NCBI GenBank assembly: GCA_030950375.1
Contig: JAUZRN010000011.1
Location: 90,001-144,853 of the forward strand
Length of the DNA stretch: 54,853 nt
Reading direction: 5' to 3'
Source: Rhodothermus sp.
GTDB taxonomy: Bacteria > Bacteroidota > Rhodothermia > Rhodothermales > Rhodothermaceae
Shown here: positions 223 to 8,921 of the stretch, piece after piece
Position numbering within the stretch: the stretch's first letter is position 1
How the letters are laid out: the number at the start of each line of letters is the position of its first letter
Made by a program: the position numbers and the translations under genes
The notes under the pieces: generated by a model
What the model was told of the DNA's origin: nothing
Database searches by the model: none
The model's input: the letters and a program-made list of their open reading frames with translations, nothing else

Positions 223-381
223 ATGGAAACGCGCTCACCCCAACCGACGCCCTGGCCACAGCAACTCTACGATAATCCCTGGCTGCTGGCCGGGGCCGCC
301 ATCGTGTTTTTTGTGCTTTCCTACATCGTCTGGGGAGTGATTGATCTGCTCACTATCCCAACAGGAGGGACGACGCCATGA
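223..381 (+). CDS. Small single-helix subunit of haem-copper oxidoreductase
   Basis: A 52-residue protein with one transmembrane helix at about residues 19-41 and a tryptophan-rich N-terminus. It resembles the short subunit IIa that packs beside subunits I and II in B-type (ba3) haem-copper oxidases. The ATG at 223 follows a TAGGAG sequence at short spacing; an in-frame ATG at 163 would add 20 residues without family likeness and would overlap the upstream palindromes. Its stop overlaps the subunit II start (ATGA, 378-381), so the two are translationally coupled. Identification rests on size, topology and position, since such subunits have little sequence signature. Confidence 0.7.
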   Translation: METRSPQPTPWPQQLYDNPWLLAGAAIVFFVLSYIVWGVIDLLTIPTGGTTP

Positions 382-917
382 GCTCGCCACTAAAACCCCT
401 GGAAGGAAACTGGTGGGCCATTCCCGCCAGTCGACACGAAAAGATCTGGCTCTGGATCAGCGTGGTATGGGGCCTGATTCTTTTTGGCTGGATGGTCGGA
501 TGGAGCTTTTTCGGTGCGCAGAACCAGCATGGCCCTACCTACCGCATTGAGCCGGCCGCCTATCGGGCCAAGCTTGCCGCCTACCGCGAAGTCAGCACGG
601 TGACCGAACAAGGTCTGCGCCCTGCGGGCGAGGACGTATACATCGCGGCCATGCGGTACGGCTTCGATGGTCTGCCGGTGATCCTGAAGGCCGGCAAAAC
701 TTATCGGCTGCACCTGACCAGTTACGATGTACAGCACGGGCTTTCCATTCGGCCTGAACACGCGCTCAGTAAGCAGGTCACGTTCCAGTTACTGCCTGGT
801 TATGAGTGGGTGATCCCCATGCGTTTCGATGAGCCGGGCGTCTATCACGTGGTCTGCAACGAGTTCTGCGGCATCGGGCATCGCACCATGCATGGAATCT
901 TTATCGTGGAGGAATGA
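378..917 (+). CDS. Haem-copper oxidoreductase subunit II (CuA)
   Basis: A 179-residue protein with one N-terminal transmembrane helix (about 24-46) followed by a periplasmic cupredoxin domain. The binuclear CuA ligands are all present: His120, Cys160, Glu162, Cys164, His168 and Met171 (CNEFCGIGHRTM). It would accept electrons from cytochrome c or a copper protein and pass them to the haem of subunit I. The short length and single helix fit B-type enzymes rather than aa3 subunit II. Cotranscribed with the genes at 223 and 921; the gap to subunit I is 3 nt. Confidence 0.93.
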   Translation: MSSPLKPLEGNWWAIPASRHEKIWLWISVVWGLILFGWMVGWSFFGAQNQHGPTYRIEPAAYRAKLAAYREVSTVTEQGLRPAGEDVYIAAMRYGFDGLPVILKAGKTYRLHLTSYDVQHGLSIRPEHALSKQVTFQLLPGYEWVIPMRFDEPGVYHVVCNEFCGIGHRTMHGIFIVEE

Positions 918-920
918 GCT

Positions 921-2633
921 ATGGCTGGCCTGCTACTATCGGGAACCTATGATGCTGAAGGCTTCCGGACGTGCTCGGTCACGGGCCTTCGCATTCATCG
1001 GGACGTGGAACGCTACGTGAAGCTGTTTGCCCTCACGGCTGTCGTGGCGCTGCTGATCGGTGGCCTCTCGGCCATCTTTGTTGCCCTCACGCGCTGGGAG
1101 GTGATTGGTCTGGCCGATCCTCCGGCCTTTTACAAGTGGCTCAGCATCCATGCCTGGAATCTGTTGATTTTCTGGATGGTCTTTATGGAAGTGGCCATCC
1201 TGTACATTGGCGGACCGTTAGTGCTGGGCCGGCCGCTTCCAACACCCAAGCTGGCCGGGGTTGGCTACTTTCTCATGTTGGGGGCGGCCTTGATGATCAA
1301 TCATGCCATTGCCACCACGGAAGCCCCCGACAGTGCGCCGCTGCTAACTTCGTACGCCCCGCTGCCCTCGCCGCCCCTGTTTTATCTCGGGGTGATTCTG
1401 TTTATCCTGGGGGTTATCATTGCGGCGCTGCCGTTCTTTATTACAATCTGGCAGGAAAAGCAGGAACATCCCCATCGGACGCTTCCACTGGTCAGCTTCG
1501 GGGCGTTCATTACGTCCATCATCGCTCTGGAAGCCCTGCTCGGAGGACTGATCACCTACATTCCCACGTTCCTCTGGCGCATCGGGGTAGTGGAACACAT
1601 CGATGCCGCCTGGTACCGACAGATGTACTGGATTATCGGTCATGGAAGTCAGCAGATTAATCTGGCGGCCATGATCACAGTCTGGTACTTCCTGACGCAT
1701 GTAGTAGGCGGGGCCGAGGTGGTCAGCGAAAAGCTATCGCGGACGGCTTTCATTCTGTATCTGTTCTTCATCAACATGGGAGCAGCCCATCATCTGCTAG
1801 CCGATCCGGGCGTCCATATGAGCTGGAAGCACTGGAACACATCTTATGCCGTCTATGGCGCCGTGCTGGCCAGCATGATTCACGCTTTTGCCATCCCGGC
1901 CGGCCTGGAAGCCGGACGTCGCAAGCGTGGATTTGGACGTCAGGGCCTCTTTGGCTGGCTCTGGTCAGCGCCCTGGGGCAACCCGGTCTTTTCCGCCACT
2001 GTGCTGGGAATCATCATGTTTGGTTTTATCGGCGGCATTTCGGGTGTGGTGATGGGGCAAACGCAGCTGAACCTGACCTGGCACAACACGCTGGGCGTGC
2101 CCGGCCATTTTCATGGAACTGTCGTGCTGGGGACCACGCTGACCTTCATGGCCCTGGTGTACTTTGCCCTGCCGGTCCTGTTCAATCGGGACCTGGCTTT
2201 CAAACCACTGGCCCGCATTCAACCCTACGTCTATGCCCTGACGATGGGATTGGCCACTATTATGATGATCTACCTGGGCGTGCTCTATGGTGTGCCCCGG
2301 CGGCATCCATCGGTGATGAGTTTTCCGGGTACCGATTTCAGCTTCGCCGCTGCTTCGCCTCTGTTCGCTATCTTCGGAGTGGCGGCCATCCTGGCCCTCA
2401 TCGCCGGCGCCAGCTTTCTGCTGGTGGCTGTGGGATCGCTGCTTTTCGGGAAGCGGATTGACAACCCGGCCCTGGTAATGCCCCCGTTAATTTCCGGCGG
2501 AAGCGATGACAAGCCAATTCATACGTACTCGATGCAGGGCACGCTTACGTTGACGCTCATTTTCTTGGCGGTCTTTGCCGCCATCTACATCGTAAACTGG
2601 TATCTGCTGGGTCGCTTGTGGGCCATCGGCTAA
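921..2633 (+). CDS. Haem-copper oxidoreductase subunit I lacking the active-site tyrosine (probable NO reductase, eNOR-like)
   Basis: A 570-residue polytopic membrane protein. Haem and copper ligands are visible: His77 (low-spin haem), His241, His290 and His291 (CuB), and the HxH pair His396/His398. In oxygen reductases the CuB helix reads HPxVY, with a tyrosine cross-linked to the first histidine. Here it reads HGSQQ, so Gln245 replaces the tyrosine. Oxygen reduction needs that tyrosine, whereas several NO-reducing families derived from oxidases have lost it. From memory, an eNOR enzyme with CuA was purified from Rhodothermus marinus. The gene sits in an operon with CuA subunit II. Membership in the superfamily is certain; NO reduction is inference. 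Confidence 0.9.
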   Translation: MAGLLLSGTYDAEGFRTCSVTGLRIHRDVERYVKLFALTAVVALLIGGLSAIFVALTRWEVIGLADPPAFYKWLSIHAWNLLIFWMVFMEVAILYIGGPLVLGRPLPTPKLAGVGYFLMLGAALMINHAIATTEAPDSAPLLTSYAPLPSPPLFYLGVILFILGVIIAALPFFITIWQEKQEHPHRTLPLVSFGAFITSIIALEALLGGLITYIPTFLWRIGVVEHIDAAWYRQMYWIIGHGSQQINLAAMITVWYFLTHVVGGAEVVSEKLSRTAFILYLFFINMGAAHHLLADPGVHMSWKHWNTSYAVYGAVLASMIHAFAIPAGLEAGRRKRGFGRQGLFGWLWSAPWGNPVFSATVLGIIMFGFIGGISGVVMGQTQLNLTWHNTLGVPGHFHGTVVLGTTLTFMALVYFALPVLFNRDLAFKPLARIQPYVYALTMGLATIMMIYLGVLYGVPRRHPSVMSFPGTDFSFAAASPLFAIFGVAAILALIAGASFLLVAVGSLLFGKRIDNPALVMPPLISGGSDDKPIHTYSMQGTLTLTLIFLAVFAAIYIVNWYLLGRLWAIG

Positions 2634-2653
2634 AAGCATGCAGGGAGATAGGC

Positions 2654-3436
2654 ATGAAAGAGCTGGCCCTGAAAAATCATAAGCGTGCTCACCTTCGTAA
2701 CGGGGCGGTCGAGTCCCCGTCGATCCTGCCGGCAGGATGGCGGGGGCTCGGCCGGGGGCAGCAACTCTGGCGCTTCATCAAGAGCATTTATTACGCCAGC
2801 AGTCCAGGTTGGCAGTTGCTTAAAAGCGGTGCGCTGTTTTTCTTTGGATTCTTCTGCTGGGCTGTCGGGAATCTGCTGCACGCGTACCTGCCCGAGGTCT
2901 ACTGGCCCCACCTGCTGACCGTGTATGGTGCGTTGCTTTTCTGGTTTGGGCCCCTGACGCATCTGGTTTTTGTGCCCCGTCTGATACCCTGGCTGCGTCG
3001 CCAGCGTCAGCATCGCTTCCTTCACTGGCTGGGCGGTCACTTTACCGTGACGATGTTTACCCTGTTTTTTACCATGGTGGCGTGGCTCAGCCTGGACCCA
3101 CCAGACTTTATGGTGCTGGACGTTGAGGGACGCCTGCACCACACGGCAGTCGTTCAGGCCACTGCAGAACCTGCGGCCCAGCTTCCGGACTTGAATTGTC
3201 AGCGCGCAGAGGGACAGATCACCTGCTTGCTGACGCACGTACCGGACGCCGTCGCACGCGTTGAGGTCACCTCGGGAACCCATCGGCTGCTGCAACTCGA
3301 ACGACCGACCGTCGCCTTTACGCTTTCGGAGCAGGAGCTGGCCGAGGTGCTGGGACAACGTGAGTTTCGCGTGACGCTCTATGACCGCCAGGGACGCCCG
3401 CTACGCGAGTTTGTACGCACTACAGCATTTCTCTAA
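2654..3436 (+). CDS. Membrane protein of unknown function in the NO-reductase-like operon
   Basis: A 260-residue protein I do not recognise. About 50 N-terminal cytoplasmic residues are followed by three predicted helices (about 57-79, 86-108, 122-146) and a soluble domain of some 110 residues rich in beta-prone segments, with two cysteines in NCQRAEGQITC. Start at 2654 was chosen because AGGGAGAT lies just upstream; an ATG at 2618 would overlap subunit I. It is 20 nt after subunit I and in the same direction, so it is probably an accessory or assembly protein of that complex. It converges with the Fur-type gene. Confidence 0.75.
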   Translation: MKELALKNHKRAHLRNGAVESPSILPAGWRGLGRGQQLWRFIKSIYYASSPGWQLLKSGALFFFGFFCWAVGNLLHAYLPEVYWPHLLTVYGALLFWFGPLTHLVFVPRLIPWLRRQRQHRFLHWLGGHFTVTMFTLFFTMVAWLSLDPPDFMVLDVEGRLHHTAVVQATAEPAAQLPDLNCQRAEGQITCLLTHVPDAVARVEVTSGTHRLLQLERPTVAFTLSEQELAEVLGQREFRVTLYDRQGRPLREFVRTTAFL

Positions 3437-4007: not shown

Positions 4008-4664
4008 TCAACGTTTGGAAGAAGAACCGCTGCCTGAAGAGCGGGTTCCGCTATTCTGGAGAAGGCGTTGCACATCTGCCCATATCGTTTCGTGAATCGT
4101 CTCGATACGCGCCGTTGCATCCAGGCGCAGAATGCGTTCCGGCTCTTCGGCAGCCAGACGCGCATACGTGGCACGCACGCGCTCGAAAAAGGCAACATCT
4201 GCCTGCTCCATACGATCCAGCTTGGTGCTGCGACGGCGGCGATTCAGGGCTATCTCAAGCGGCACATCCAGCCAGTAGGTGCGATGCGGCGTGAATCCTG
4301 CCGTCACCCGCAGGTTAAAGTCCCGGAGCCAGTCCAGCTCGACTATCTGGCGTCCACCGCCCTGGTAGGCCGTCGTAGAATCGTAGAATCGATCGCACAG
4401 CACAATATAGCCGGCCTGCAGAGCGGGACGGATGCGCTGTATCACCAGCTGACGACGGGCTGCTGAAAACAACAACAATTCGGCAAAGGGCTCAATGTCC
4501 AGGCCCGGATCAAGCAGTAGCTGACGAATATGTTCGGACAACTCTGTACCGCCTGGCTCGCGCACCAACAGCGTGCAATAACCGGCGGCTTCCAACCGTT
4601 CAGCCAACAGACGCGCCTGGGTGCTTTTTCCACACCCATCAATTCCTTCGAAGCTGATCAGCAT
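4008..4664 (-). CDS. tmk: Thymidylate kinase
   Basis: A 218-residue cytoplasmic kinase that phosphorylates dTMP to dTDP. The P-loop GIDGCGKST is at residues 7-15, the substrate-binding DRFYDST segment is near residue 90, and an arginine-rich LID (NRRRRSTKLDRME) follows. Length is typical. The C-terminus is a serine/glycine-rich tail. It is first in a likely two-gene unit with the Fur-type regulator. The 200-nt gap to the divergent TPR gene should hold its promoter, but I see no clear consensus there. Confidence 0.95.
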   Translation of the reverse strand: MLISFEGIDGCGKSTQARLLAERLEAAGYCTLLVREPGGTELSEHIRQLLLDPGLDIEPFAELLLFSAARRQLVIQRIRPALQAGYIVLCDRFYDSTTAYQGGGRQIVELDWLRDFNLRVTAGFTPHRTYWLDVPLEIALNRRRRSTKLDRMEQADVAFFERVRATYARLAAEEPERILRLDATARIETIHETIWADVQRLLQNSGTRSSGSGSSSKR

Positions 4665-4864
4665 AGGCTTAGTTTTTTCAGTTTTTCTGACGATACTAAA
4701 GACCGCAGCAGGCCGACTCGAAGTTCTTGCAAATTGTTATGCTGACGCTTAAACTGAGAGGCGCAGCACGTTGGGGGCGAACATTTTCGGGCGGTCTGCT
4801 TTAATAGGTTGGCCGGGACACCACAGGGGCGATCCCGGAAATAGACTGAAAGCCTTCGGCGCCT

Positions 4865-6262
4865 ATGAGCTTCTTCGATTTTGGTTTCGACGATGCCGAT
4901 GACGCACTGGACCCCAGCCACATCGAACAACTGGTAGCGGCTTACGAAGCGCAGGGGGCCTCGGCATATTTCGATTCGGACGCCCTGGAAGAAATTGCTA
5001 CGTATTACTACGAGCACGGCCGTTTTGAAGAAGCGCTGGGTGTGATCGATCATCTGCTGACGCTGCACCCTGCCGCATCAGATGCCTGGATGCGTCGAGG
5101 CATCTTGCTCAGTCACCTGGGCCGGCATGAAGAGGCGCTGGAAGCCTATGAGCGTGCTCTGACATTGAACCCCACCGACTCGGAAACGCTTGTCAATCTG
5201 GGCATTACGCTGGATAATCTGGGCCGCTTTGAAGACGCGCTGGCAGCCTACGAGCGTGCGCTCCAGATCGATCCGCTGAACGACGAGATCTTTTACAACC
5301 GAGGAATCACGCTGGAGCGTATGGACCGTCTGGAAGAGGCGGTTGAAGCCCTGGAAGAGGCTGCACGGCTCAACCCCGATCATCCCGAGGTCTGGTATGA
5401 ACTGGGCTATTGTTACGATCGACTTGGGGACGACGAACGCAGCTTAGCTTGTTACGACCGGCACCTGGAGCTGGACCCCTATTCGGCCGATGCCTGGTAC
5501 AACCGGGGAATTGTGCTTAACCGCATGGGGCGTTACCGTGAGGCCGTCGAGTCATACGATTATGCCATTGCTATCCAGGACGACTTCGGGTCGGCCTACT
5601 ATAACCGGGGCAATGCGTTGACGAACCTGGGTGACCTGCGGGGCGCCATTGAAAGCTACCAGAAAGTGCTGGAAATTGAGGGCGGAGATGCACCCACCTT
5701 CTACAACATCGCTCTGGCCTACGAAGAGCTGCAGGAATATGAAACGGCCATTCGCTACTTCCAGCACGCGCTCGAAGAAGATCCGGCCTATGCAGAAGCC
5801 TGGTATGGTCTGGGGTATTGCTACGATGCCCTGGAGCGCTTTGAGGAGGCTGTTGCCTGCATGGAACGAGCTGTCACGCTGAAACCGGAAAGCAGTGAAT
5901 TCTGGTACGCTAAAGCGGATTGCGAATACAATGCCCGGCGCCTGCAGGATGCCCTTGAGTCCTACCGTCGCGTAATCGAACTGGATCCCCAAAACCGTGA
6001 TGCGTGGCTGGACTATGCCGAGACGCTGCTCGAGGCGGGTTATGCCGAAGAGGCGCTGGCAGCCTATCGTAAGGCGTTGACGCTTAACCCGGATGCCCGC
6101 GCGTACATTCGTCAGGCCCGGGCCTTACTGGCGCTGGGACGTTCTGAGGAAGGCCTCCGCTCCCTGAAAATGGCTCTCCGGTTGGATCCGTCGGCGCAGG
6201 ATGAGCTTCCGGATCTATACCGGGATGCCTCCATTCGGCGGCAGCTCGGCCTGGATGGTTAA
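4865..6262 (+). CDS. Tetratricopeptide repeat protein
   Basis: A 465-residue, acidic, apparently cytoplasmic protein without a signal peptide, built almost wholly from about twelve 34-residue TPR units (for example NLGITLDNLGRFEDALAAYE) starting near residue 40. TPR arrays bind partner proteins; the partner is unknown. Several units contain a YNRG or YELGYCY signature, giving the array an internal higher-order periodicity. The DUF368 transporter gene starts 16 nt later and is probably cotranscribed. Long TPR proteins of this sort are widespread in Bacteroidota and usually have no assigned role. Confidence 0.9.
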   Translation: MSFFDFGFDDADDALDPSHIEQLVAAYEAQGASAYFDSDALEEIATYYYEHGRFEEALGVIDHLLTLHPAASDAWMRRGILLSHLGRHEEALEAYERALTLNPTDSETLVNLGITLDNLGRFEDALAAYERALQIDPLNDEIFYNRGITLERMDRLEEAVEALEEAARLNPDHPEVWYELGYCYDRLGDDERSLACYDRHLELDPYSADAWYNRGIVLNRMGRYREAVESYDYAIAIQDDFGSAYYNRGNALTNLGDLRGAIESYQKVLEIEGGDAPTFYNIALAYEELQEYETAIRYFQHALEEDPAYAEAWYGLGYCYDALERFEEAVACMERAVTLKPESSEFWYAKADCEYNARRLQDALESYRRVIELDPQNRDAWLDYAETLLEAGYAEEALAAYRKALTLNPDARAYIRQARALLALGRSEEGLRSLKMALRLDPSAQDELPDLYRDASIRRQLGLDG

Positions 6263-6277
6263 GCTCCGCTCGATCAC

Positions 6278-7174
6278 ATGCGATCGTCGCTACGTACCGT
6301 TCTCCGCTCTTTCCTGGCCGGGCTGTTGATGGGCACGGCCGACGTAATCCCCGGTGTCAGCGGCGGTACCATGGCTCTGGTGGTAGGCATCTACGAGCAG
6401 CTTGTGGCGGCCGTCCACCAGGTTTTTCAGGCATTGGTGCTGGCCGTTCGCGGTCGTCTGCTTGACGGCTGGCAGCACTTCCGACGGATTCCGTGGCCTT
6501 TCTTGCTGCCACTCGGATTGGGCATTGCCACGGCCATTCTCAGCGCAGCCCGGCTGATCCTGCACCTGCTCGCCACATATCCGGTGCAGATGCGCGGTCT
6601 GTTCTTCGGCCTGATTGCCGGCTCTCTCCTGCTTCCCTGGCTACGTCTGCAGCAACGCACGCTCCGCGAAGGCCTGCTGGCGCTCGGCGGTGCCCTCTTT
6701 GCTTTCCTCGTGGTAGGCATTCCACCTCGCGTGGTACCCGACCCGGCACTCTGGCAGGTCTTCGGAGCCGCTGCGATAGCCATCTGCGCCATGATCCTGC
6801 CCGGCGTCAGTGGCGCCTTCCTGTTGCTCGTGCTGGGCCTCTACGAGCCTACCCTGCGTGCACTCACGGAATACGATCTGCTTTACCTGCTAATCTTTGC
6901 CCTGGGGGCCGCAACTGGACTGGGGCTATTTTCCCGGGTGCTACATTATCTAATCCGGCACCACCATGATGCGACGATGGCTGTGCTGGTGGGGTTGATG
7001 GCTGGCTCGCTTCGGGCGCTCTGGCCCTGGATGGATGAAATGCGCCGCCTGCAATGGCCCGATACCTCTGATCCTGTAGGAAGTGTATTGCTCCTGGCTC
7101 TGGGAGGCCTGCTGATTGTTGGCGCACTGACGTGGTGGGAGCGGCGCCGGACTTTTCACTCGGCCAACCGCTGA
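6278..7174 (+). CDS. DUF368 family membrane protein, probable undecaprenyl-phosphate translocase
   Basis: A 298-residue protein with about eight hydrophobic helices and two DUF368 hallmark motifs: ADVIPGVSGGTMALVVGIYE near residue 22 and a duplicated ILPGVSGAFLLLVLGLYE near residue 172. The family (PopT) was recently shown in other bacteria to return undecaprenyl phosphate across the membrane for cell-wall synthesis; that role here is by homology. It follows the TPR gene by 16 nt. The gene ends convergently 2 nt from the next stop, and both stops lie inside a small palindrome (CGCTGAGTTCAGCG). Confidence 0.9.
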   Translation: MRSSLRTVLRSFLAGLLMGTADVIPGVSGGTMALVVGIYEQLVAAVHQVFQALVLAVRGRLLDGWQHFRRIPWPFLLPLGLGIATAILSAARLILHLLATYPVQMRGLFFGLIAGSLLLPWLRLQQRTLREGLLALGGALFAFLVVGIPPRVVPDPALWQVFGAAAIAICAMILPGVSGAFLLLVLGLYEPTLRALTEYDLLYLLIFALGAATGLGLFSRVLHYLIRHHHDATMAVLVGLMAGSLRALWPWMDEMRRLQWPDTSDPVGSVLLLALGGLLIVGALTWWERRRTFHSANR

Positions 7175-7176
7175 GT

Positions 7177-8850
7177 TCAGCGTACCCGTACCACCGGCTG
7201 CATGTCGATGAAGGTTTCGCCTTCGGCCTGCACCAGATAAAGGCCTGGAGCCCAGTTGCCACGTAGCGTGAGCTGCACAGGGTGGGCCGGAGCTACCTCG
7301 CCCTGGAAGACAAGCTGTACCACACGCCCCAGCAGATCCAGCAATTGTACCCGAACACGCTGCGGCCGATCTACCCGAAGCCAGAGCTGTGTCGTCGAAC
7401 GCCAGGGATGTGGCACCGGTACCGAAAGCCCCACCGGTGGTCTGTCAGGTAACGGATCGTAATCCGTAGCCATCCCCCCGTCTGGTCGCAGCACGAATAG
7501 TCCCTCCCCGATGCTGCTGACCAGCACGATACCATCCGGCAGAAACGGATACACGCCCCAGGCCCCGACAAATTGAACTGGATTGCCCCACAGATACGTA
7601 TCGAAAAAGCCGATCTCCACCGGCTGCTCCCGATTCGATATGTCCAGCACCCGAAGTCCTGCCGAATAATTCGCCTGAAAGAGCAGGTTGCCGCGTACGA
7701 ACAGGTTGTGATCAATGACCGACGTGGTCGCCTGGTACTCAGCTACCAGACGCGGTTTATCCAGATCGGACAAGTCGAAAATCAGCGTCCGCGTGCGCGG
7801 AGGAGCCGGCTGCAATCCGTTCTGATAGGCCCGCCATCCCTGCACTTCATCCAGCTCATCACCCAGATAGAAATAACGATGCGCCTCGTCGAGCCAGCCC
7901 TGATGTGCGTAGGCCACGCCGGAATAGGTGAGGGTGGCCACCTCCTGCACGTTTGTCTTGTCTGTCACATCCAGAATACCGATCCCCGTCTCATCAGCGC
8001 CGATGCAAATTTCGCGGCCCTGATAATCCGGATCGGGGCCCTGATACACCACACACTGCGCGTCGTGCGTGTAGCCTGGTCCTACACGCCCACCCAGCAG
8101 AGACTTGAAGCATCCGGCAAAGCGGGGATGCTGTGGGTCCGTCAGGTCCACCGCATGATAGCCGAAGTCACAGTACGCCAGCGAATCGGGATGCTCTCCC
8201 ACACCTACCGCATAGGCAAAACCGGTTGCTTCGTTCACCACCACGTTGTGGGCCGTGCCAAAGCCAAGATAGTGTGCCACCGGCTCCAGCAAGGTAGGAA
8301 TCCGGGTAAGCGTCCGAAGCTGCCTCAGATCAAACACCTGTAACCCGTGCCCGACATTATGATCGCTTACCACCAGCGCATAGGGGCCATAGGTTTTTAC
8401 GTCGCGCCAGAGGCTTGCTTTTCCATGTACTATACGGTCAGGCTGTATCTTGTGTGATTGGTTCCGCGAGGGCTCGGGCAAAAACGCCACCAGGCGTGGC
8501 TGCACCGGATCGGTCACGTCGACAACCGACACGCCGTTACTCAACCCTACCAGCGCATAGCGGCGACCGGTCTCTGGATCCACCCAGCCCCAGATATCAT
8601 TAGCCACGACGTCCGTTGTATCGTCCTGCGTCCAATCGCTATCCAGAGCAGCCAGCGGCAGAAAAGACAGCAGCGTGACACTGTTGCAGGCAAATCCAGC
8701 CGCCTGTCCATCCACACATGCCACTGCCTGCCCTGTTACGGGTAACAGGGGATGCTGAACCGTCTGCGCCAGGGCCACGATCGGCAAAAGTCCGAGAAGT
8801 CCTATCTTTGGCGGGAGGCGCATATAGCAAAATACGAAATTCTCTTGCAT
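7177..8850 (-). CDS. Secreted choice-of-anchor B / LVIVD-repeat protein with T9SS sorting tail
   Basis: A 557-residue protein. The N-terminus is a signal peptide ending ALA-Q. The body carries LVIVD-like beta-propeller repeats (WGWVDPETGRRYALVGLSNGV, then VFDLRQL and VLDISNREQPVEIGFFDT) and a conserved HDAQCVVYQGPD segment. The last 80 residues (PVPHPW..., QLLDLLGRVV..., GLYLVQAEGE) match a type A C-terminal sorting domain of the Por/type IX system, which exports cargo to the cell surface. Two starts are possible: 8850, with an AAGGA sequence upstream, and 8823, which begins directly with the signal peptide. Substrate unknown. Confidence 0.87.
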   Translation of the reverse strand: MQENFVFCYMRLPPKIGLLGLLPIVALAQTVQHPLLPVTGQAVACVDGQAAGFACNSVTLLSFLPLAALDSDWTQDDTTDVVANDIWGWVDPETGRRYALVGLSNGVSVVDVTDPVQPRLVAFLPEPSRNQSHKIQPDRIVHGKASLWRDVKTYGPYALVVSDHNVGHGLQVFDLRQLRTLTRIPTLLEPVAHYLGFGTAHNVVVNEATGFAYAVGVGEHPDSLAYCDFGYHAVDLTDPQHPRFAGCFKSLLGGRVGPGYTHDAQCVVYQGPDPDYQGREICIGADETGIGILDVTDKTNVQEVATLTYSGVAYAHQGWLDEAHRYFYLGDELDEVQGWRAYQNGLQPAPPRTRTLIFDLSDLDKPRLVAEYQATTSVIDHNLFVRGNLLFQANYSAGLRVLDISNREQPVEIGFFDTYLWGNPVQFVGAWGVYPFLPDGIVLVSSIGEGLFVLRPDGGMATDYDPLPDRPPVGLSVPVPHPWRSTTQLWLRVDRPQRVRVQLLDLLGRVVQLVFQGEVAPAHPVQLTLRGNWAPGLYLVQAEGETFIDMQPVVRVR

Positions 8851-8921
8851 TTTCCTTCATGACCTCAAAAAATCGCTGATTGTTTTAGCTTTACAAAGCG
8901 CAAAATTCATCCAGAAGGTCC

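Follow-up and report, generated by a model that had tools for sequence, protein, structure and literature searches.

A Predicted eNOR-Type Nitric Oxide Reductase with Gln at the Tyrosine Site in a Rhodothermus Genome

Described relatives of the enzyme

Reduction of O2 by the heme-copper oxidases requires a fourth electron from a cross-linked Tyr residue, whereas reduction of NO does not. In the C-type (cbb3) oxidases, this Tyr comes from helix VII, where it is located six residues before the first CuB-binding His. The reference for the eNOR family of nitric oxide reductases (NORs) is said to be Hemp and Gennis 2008, and the characterized eNOR of Murali 2024 reportedly came from Rhodothermus marinus. 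A Gln residue at the Tyr site distinguishes eNOR from other NORs (PMC8756737), and eNOR is listed as biochemically characterized, with a reference to Murali 2024 and the organism unstated, in a paper that also relates cNOR and qNOR to the C-type branch (PMC11388526). The eNOR family is already described, and the enzyme discussed here represents ordinary biology, correctly recognized and already known.

The window, a 54,853-nucleotide stretch of a Rhodothermus sp. contig, carries a gene that very probably encodes subunit I of an eNOR-type nitric oxide reductase, its activity being predicted. It shares with the described eNORs the Gln at the Tyr site, the six His ligands, a CuA-containing subunit II encoded upstream, and the linkage to NirK, and it belongs to a clade with haloarchaeal and Chloroflexota members; the genus is represented in the published eNOR tree by R. 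profundi. Apart from a downstream gene for a protein with three transmembrane (TM) helices and an Ig-like domain, which is shared with haloarchaeal loci and for which no description was found, there is no substantial difference. With the ba3 oxidase of Thermus thermophilus, the enzyme shares the fold (Z score of about 32, 26 to 27% identity), the metal ligands, the CuA subunit II, a small IIa subunit, and part of the K-path. However, it has Q245 in place of the cross-linked Tyr, Q244 in place of Val, N247 in place of Trp, and H321 in place of Thr, and it falls into a separate clade. The reaction predicted here is the same as in cNOR and qNOR, but those enzymes use cytochrome c or quinol modules, whereas the partner of the window enzyme is a CuA domain.

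Catalytic subunit and its place among heme-copper enzymes

The subunit I gene (positions 921 to 2633, forward strand) is a single frame of 570 amino acids with no internal stops, assigned as the heme-copper catalytic subunit from its match to Pfam COX1 (E value of 3e-53), alignments, the tree, and a structural model. Its best match among solved structures is the T. thermophilus ba3 oxidase (E value of 7e-39 in the PDB alignment). The CuB helix reads W-I-I-G-H241-G-S-Q244-Q245-I-N; within its H241-G-S-Q244-Q245 motif (positions 1641 to 1655, forward strand), Q245 is aligned with the Tyr of the ba3 GHPIVY motif and thus occupies the position of the cross-linked Tyr.

The alignment of 139 relatives comprises 89 eNOR-type (Gln) sequences and 50 oxygen reductases (Tyr). 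The CuB ligands are H241 and the helix-VII residues H290 and H291 (positions 1788 to 1793, forward strand), the latter two being invariant in all 139 rows. The H396-F-H398 motif (positions 2106 to 2114, forward strand) contributes the high-spin heme ligand, H396, which is kept in 139 of 139 rows, and one of the two low-spin heme ligands, H77 and H398; H398 is found in 85 of the 89 eNOR-type rows and is replaced by Lys in 4 Thermus rows. An earlier note, made from this DNA alone, had reported that all heme and CuB histidines were present and that HGSQQ carried Gln245 instead of Tyr; all six histidines were found, and the ba3 alignment bears out the numbering of residues 241 to 245. The AlphaFold model of subunit I (pLDDT of 84, pTM of 0.86) superimposes on subunit I of both ba3 and aa3 oxidases with Z scores of about 32, a match that shows the fold and not the function.

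Five further genomes of its genus carry the gene, with 89 to 98% identity and the same motif; it is missing from one close relative (referred to here as G002). A sequencing error or a pseudogene is ruled out, as these orthologs retain both the motif and the frame. The identity is 95% to the ortholog in the genome taken as that of the R. marinus type strain (G004). The link between eNOR and Rhodothermus drawn in the earlier note holds with respect to the genus, all of whose genomes but one have the gene, and to the inclusion of R. profundi in the eNOR tree.

The Tyr-site column of the alignment separates the two groups with no exceptions: each of the 89 eNOR-type rows has Gln there, and each of the 50 oxygen reductases has Tyr. 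Among the Gln-type rows, residues Q244, Q245, N247, N285, N306, Y309, and H321 never vary; in the oxidases, they are absent or variable. A scan of species genomes yielded 80 named eNOR loci, which include members of haloarchaea, Thermus, Chloroflexota, Verrucomicrobiota, Myxococcota, and Planctomycetota. In phylogenetic trees, the Gln-type rows form a single clade with respect to the B- and A-type oxidases (SH-aLRT support of 99 and 100 in two trees), which adjoins the B-types, and the window sequence groups with its own genus. Forcing the Rhodothermus rows to join the B-types lowers the log-likelihood by 419 units (AU test, P = 1.3e-67), so that grouping inside the oxygen-reducing B-types, named in the earlier note as the outcome that would speak against eNOR, is rejected, as is a B-type oxidase with an odd residue. 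The Gln column, the single clade, the AU test, and the NirK and NosZ context described below support that note's reading of the gene as a likely eNOR-type NO reductase.

The ba3 oxidases are the best structural and sequence matches, and one could imagine an unusual B-type oxygen reductase that has lost its helix-VI Tyr and has an active-site Tyr supplied by a different helix, like the helix-VII Tyr of the C-types. In the eNOR-type alignment, Tyr occupies neither the helix-VI site nor the position used by the C-types on helix VII, the latter of which reads I284 (six residues before H290) or N285 (six before H291), with N285 being invariant. Helix VIII contains the invariant Tyr309 and a Tyr312 found in 85 of 89 rows, both eNOR-specific and at about the depth of the active site. 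An active-site Tyr, which the earlier note had named as a second outcome against eNOR if it came from another helix, is thus absent from these two sites, but Tyr309 or Tyr312 might conceivably serve as one. Given the separate clade, the rejected grouping with the B-types, the strong linkage to NirK, and the presence in the host of Tyr-bearing A- and B-type oxidases, an oxygen reductase of this kind is very improbable. Still less probable is that the enzyme belongs to one of the other B-derived NOR types (sNOR, gNOR, bNOR, or nNOR). These enzymes are likewise relatives of B-type oxidases with cupredoxin subunits (PMC11388526), and the tree contains no named rows for them, so that they are set apart by the Gln criterion only. 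However, that residue is said to separate eNOR from other NORs, and the window's clade contains the named eNOR carriers, that is, haloarchaea, Chloroflexota, and Rhodothermus.

With the gene assigned to eNOR, its likely annotation is misleading. The nearest annotated homologs, which are located on plasmids, are labeled "cbb3-type" or "b(o/a)3-type cytochrome-c oxidase," just as had been anticipated for automatic annotation of this gene. Judging by the sequence, such an annotation of the window gene is almost certainly wrong, the enzyme almost certainly being one that turns NO into N2O. As standard annotation files eNOR as cytochrome oxidase, counts of NO reduction and N2O production in such genomes come out too low, and recognition of the Gln marker corrects this misfiling.

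Operon neighbors and predicted mechanism

Subunit I is directly preceded by two genes on the same strand; upstream context was read to the start of the window, which is preceded by about 5 kb of masked sequence (N). The first, at positions of about 226 to 381 (forward strand; the open reading frame starts with METRSPQ, and its longest version starts at 163), encodes a small protein with a single TM helix that resembles subunit IIa of the ba3 oxidase. It has no matches in Pfam; most eNOR loci have a counterpart ahead of the subunit II gene, with E values from 2e-33 to 4e-3. The second (positions 378 to 917, forward strand) encodes subunit II, which consists of one TM helix and a CuA cupredoxin domain (Pfam ID PF00116, E value of 4e-5). 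Its CuA motif, CNEFCGIGHRTM, is complete, in agreement with the claim that a CuA subunit II adjoins subunit I, and locus comparison finds a CuA motif beside 89 of 89 eNOR-type rows.

The downstream gene (positions 2654 to 3436, forward strand) encodes a protein with three TM helices and, at its C terminus, an Ig/FnIII-like domain in which two Cys residues are invariant. Its frame is open from a GTG codon at 2618 (272 codons from 2618 to 3436), with the first ATG at 2654. The protein encoded by 2654 to 3436 has no matches in Pfam; in fold searches, its model (pLDDT of 84.5) retrieves chiefly Ig/FnIII-like domains over about 90 columns, with no function named. This gene is found in 39 of the 80 named eNOR loci, directly after eNOR in Rhodothermota and either directly after it or about 1 kb farther on in haloarchaea, and, with the exception of one deletion scar, is confined to genomes that have eNOR. 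Its product might tentatively be considered an undescribed fourth component of eNOR in the Rhodothermota/haloarchaeal branch, either a subunit or a dedicated assembly factor, e.g., for CuA.

In the predicted mechanism, a soluble donor (cytochrome c or cupredoxin) would pass electrons to the CuA center of subunit II, from where they would move to the low-spin heme (H77, H398) and the pair formed by the high-spin heme (H396) and CuB (H241, H290, H291), where the reaction 2 NO + 2 e- + 2 H+ -> N2O + H2O would take place. Because NO reduction takes only two electrons, which would be held by Fe and Cu, a redox-active Tyr would be dispensable, and Gln245 could stand in its place. The alignment shows that the K-path-like residues Tyr256 and Ser318 are retained, with His321 in place of Thr and Ile or Val in place of Tyr at position 252; protons might be delivered through these K-path-like residues. 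NirK encoded in the same genome would make NO from nitrite, and the clade II NosZ would remove N2O.

Denitrification genes and possible role

The host genome (3.03 Mb, 99.6% complete) encodes three COX1-family proteins, namely, an A-type and a B-type, both with Tyr, and eNOR. No cNOR, qNOR, or other second NOR is found among its COX1-family genes, which, at this completeness, indicates that the genome has no cNOR or qNOR. Profile searches with curated cutoffs reveal NirK (389 bits; cutoff of 296) and a Sec-dependent clade II NosZ (875 bits; cutoff of 625) but no NarG (best score of 23 bits) and no NapA over the cutoff in this genome. The host also encodes a 767-aa molybdopterin oxidoreductase (G000:C18:8102-10222) that scores 249 bits against NapA, below the cutoff.

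Among 60 related genomes, NirK is found over the cutoff in 9 of the 10 that have eNOR and in 9 of the 50 that do not (Fisher P = 2.8e-5, uncorrected for kinship), a P value that overstates independence, as 6 of the 10 eNOR genomes come from one genus. In three other genera (g4, g13, and g30), those genomes that carry eNOR also encode NirK, and the remaining members of each genus lack both. NirK (250 bits or more) is located no farther than 6 kb from eNOR in at least 16 of the 80 named loci, against an expectation of about 0.3, and in one related genome (G047), it is the divergent neighbor of the eNOR operon. An eNOR-NirK operon has been described in Ardenticatena (PMC4653789). One NirK-positive genome without eNOR (G008) has an apparent cNOR NorB beside NirK, as judged by eye from the sequence and its neighbors. 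On a single contig of a Bacteroidota metagenome-assembled genome (JAJCYR010000091.1), an eNOR locus with NirK occurs twice (L050 and L051), in apparently identical copies about 114 kb apart and in opposite orientations, possibly a duplication or an assembly artifact.

The type strain of R. marinus has been described as an obligate aerobe that does not reduce nitrate (PMC3035238), which makes a respiratory role of eNOR no more than possible and suggests that this organism either draws on nitrite or NO from outside or uses the enzyme for detoxification. It is possible that eNOR serves detoxification or microoxic use. The view that the enzyme is an NO reductase by mechanism, with NO detoxification or mixed microoxic use and not energy-conserving denitrification as its job, concerns its role rather than its identity and overlaps the eNOR reading preferred here. 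It appears possible but somewhat doubtful, as the obligately aerobic life style, the absence of NarG and of NapA over the cutoff, and the natural deletion of the operon in a relative have to be set against the nitrite-to-N2 path formed by NirK and NosZ in the same genome and the conservation of the K-path-like residues.

The deletion is seen in G002, which lacks eNOR, has no third COX1-family gene, and keeps NirK and NosZ. Alignment with G004 shows that about 2.96 kb is missing between flanks that are 96 to 98% identical (around 4315 to 4676 in the G002 locus L183 versus 5925 to 8888 in the G004 locus L184); the missing segment comprises all three subunit genes (small subunit, II, and I) together with the front half of the downstream gene, up to residue 144 of its protein. 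This clean loss, with NirK and NosZ retained, shows that eNOR is not essential. Most Rhodothermus genomes retain an intact operon, and together with this near relative they offer a natural comparison for studying the role of the enzyme in a described obligate aerobe.

The eNORs of haloarchaea and Rhodothermota, at about 60 to 65% identity, intermix in one strongly supported clade, which suggests a possible transfer between halophiles. NirK of R. marinus has likewise been reported among archaeal NirK proteins (PMC4770552).

Thermus brockianus YIM 77927 carries a Gln-type homolog from the branch with Lys in place of H398, yet this strain has been scored as lacking nor genes, with an inferred endpoint of NO (PMC9270275). 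Accordingly, the Gln mark alone may be no guarantee of a working NO reductase. The Gln-type homologs of T. brockianus, T. composti, and a T. thermophilus plasmid (L115, L122, and L170, respectively) have GHFK where GHFH is found elsewhere, the Lys replacing the second His of this motif, a low-spin heme ligand. In T. thermophilus, the neighbors of the eNOR-type gene encode a cytochrome P460, a multicopper oxidase, an Rrf2 regulator, and a DUF542 protein.
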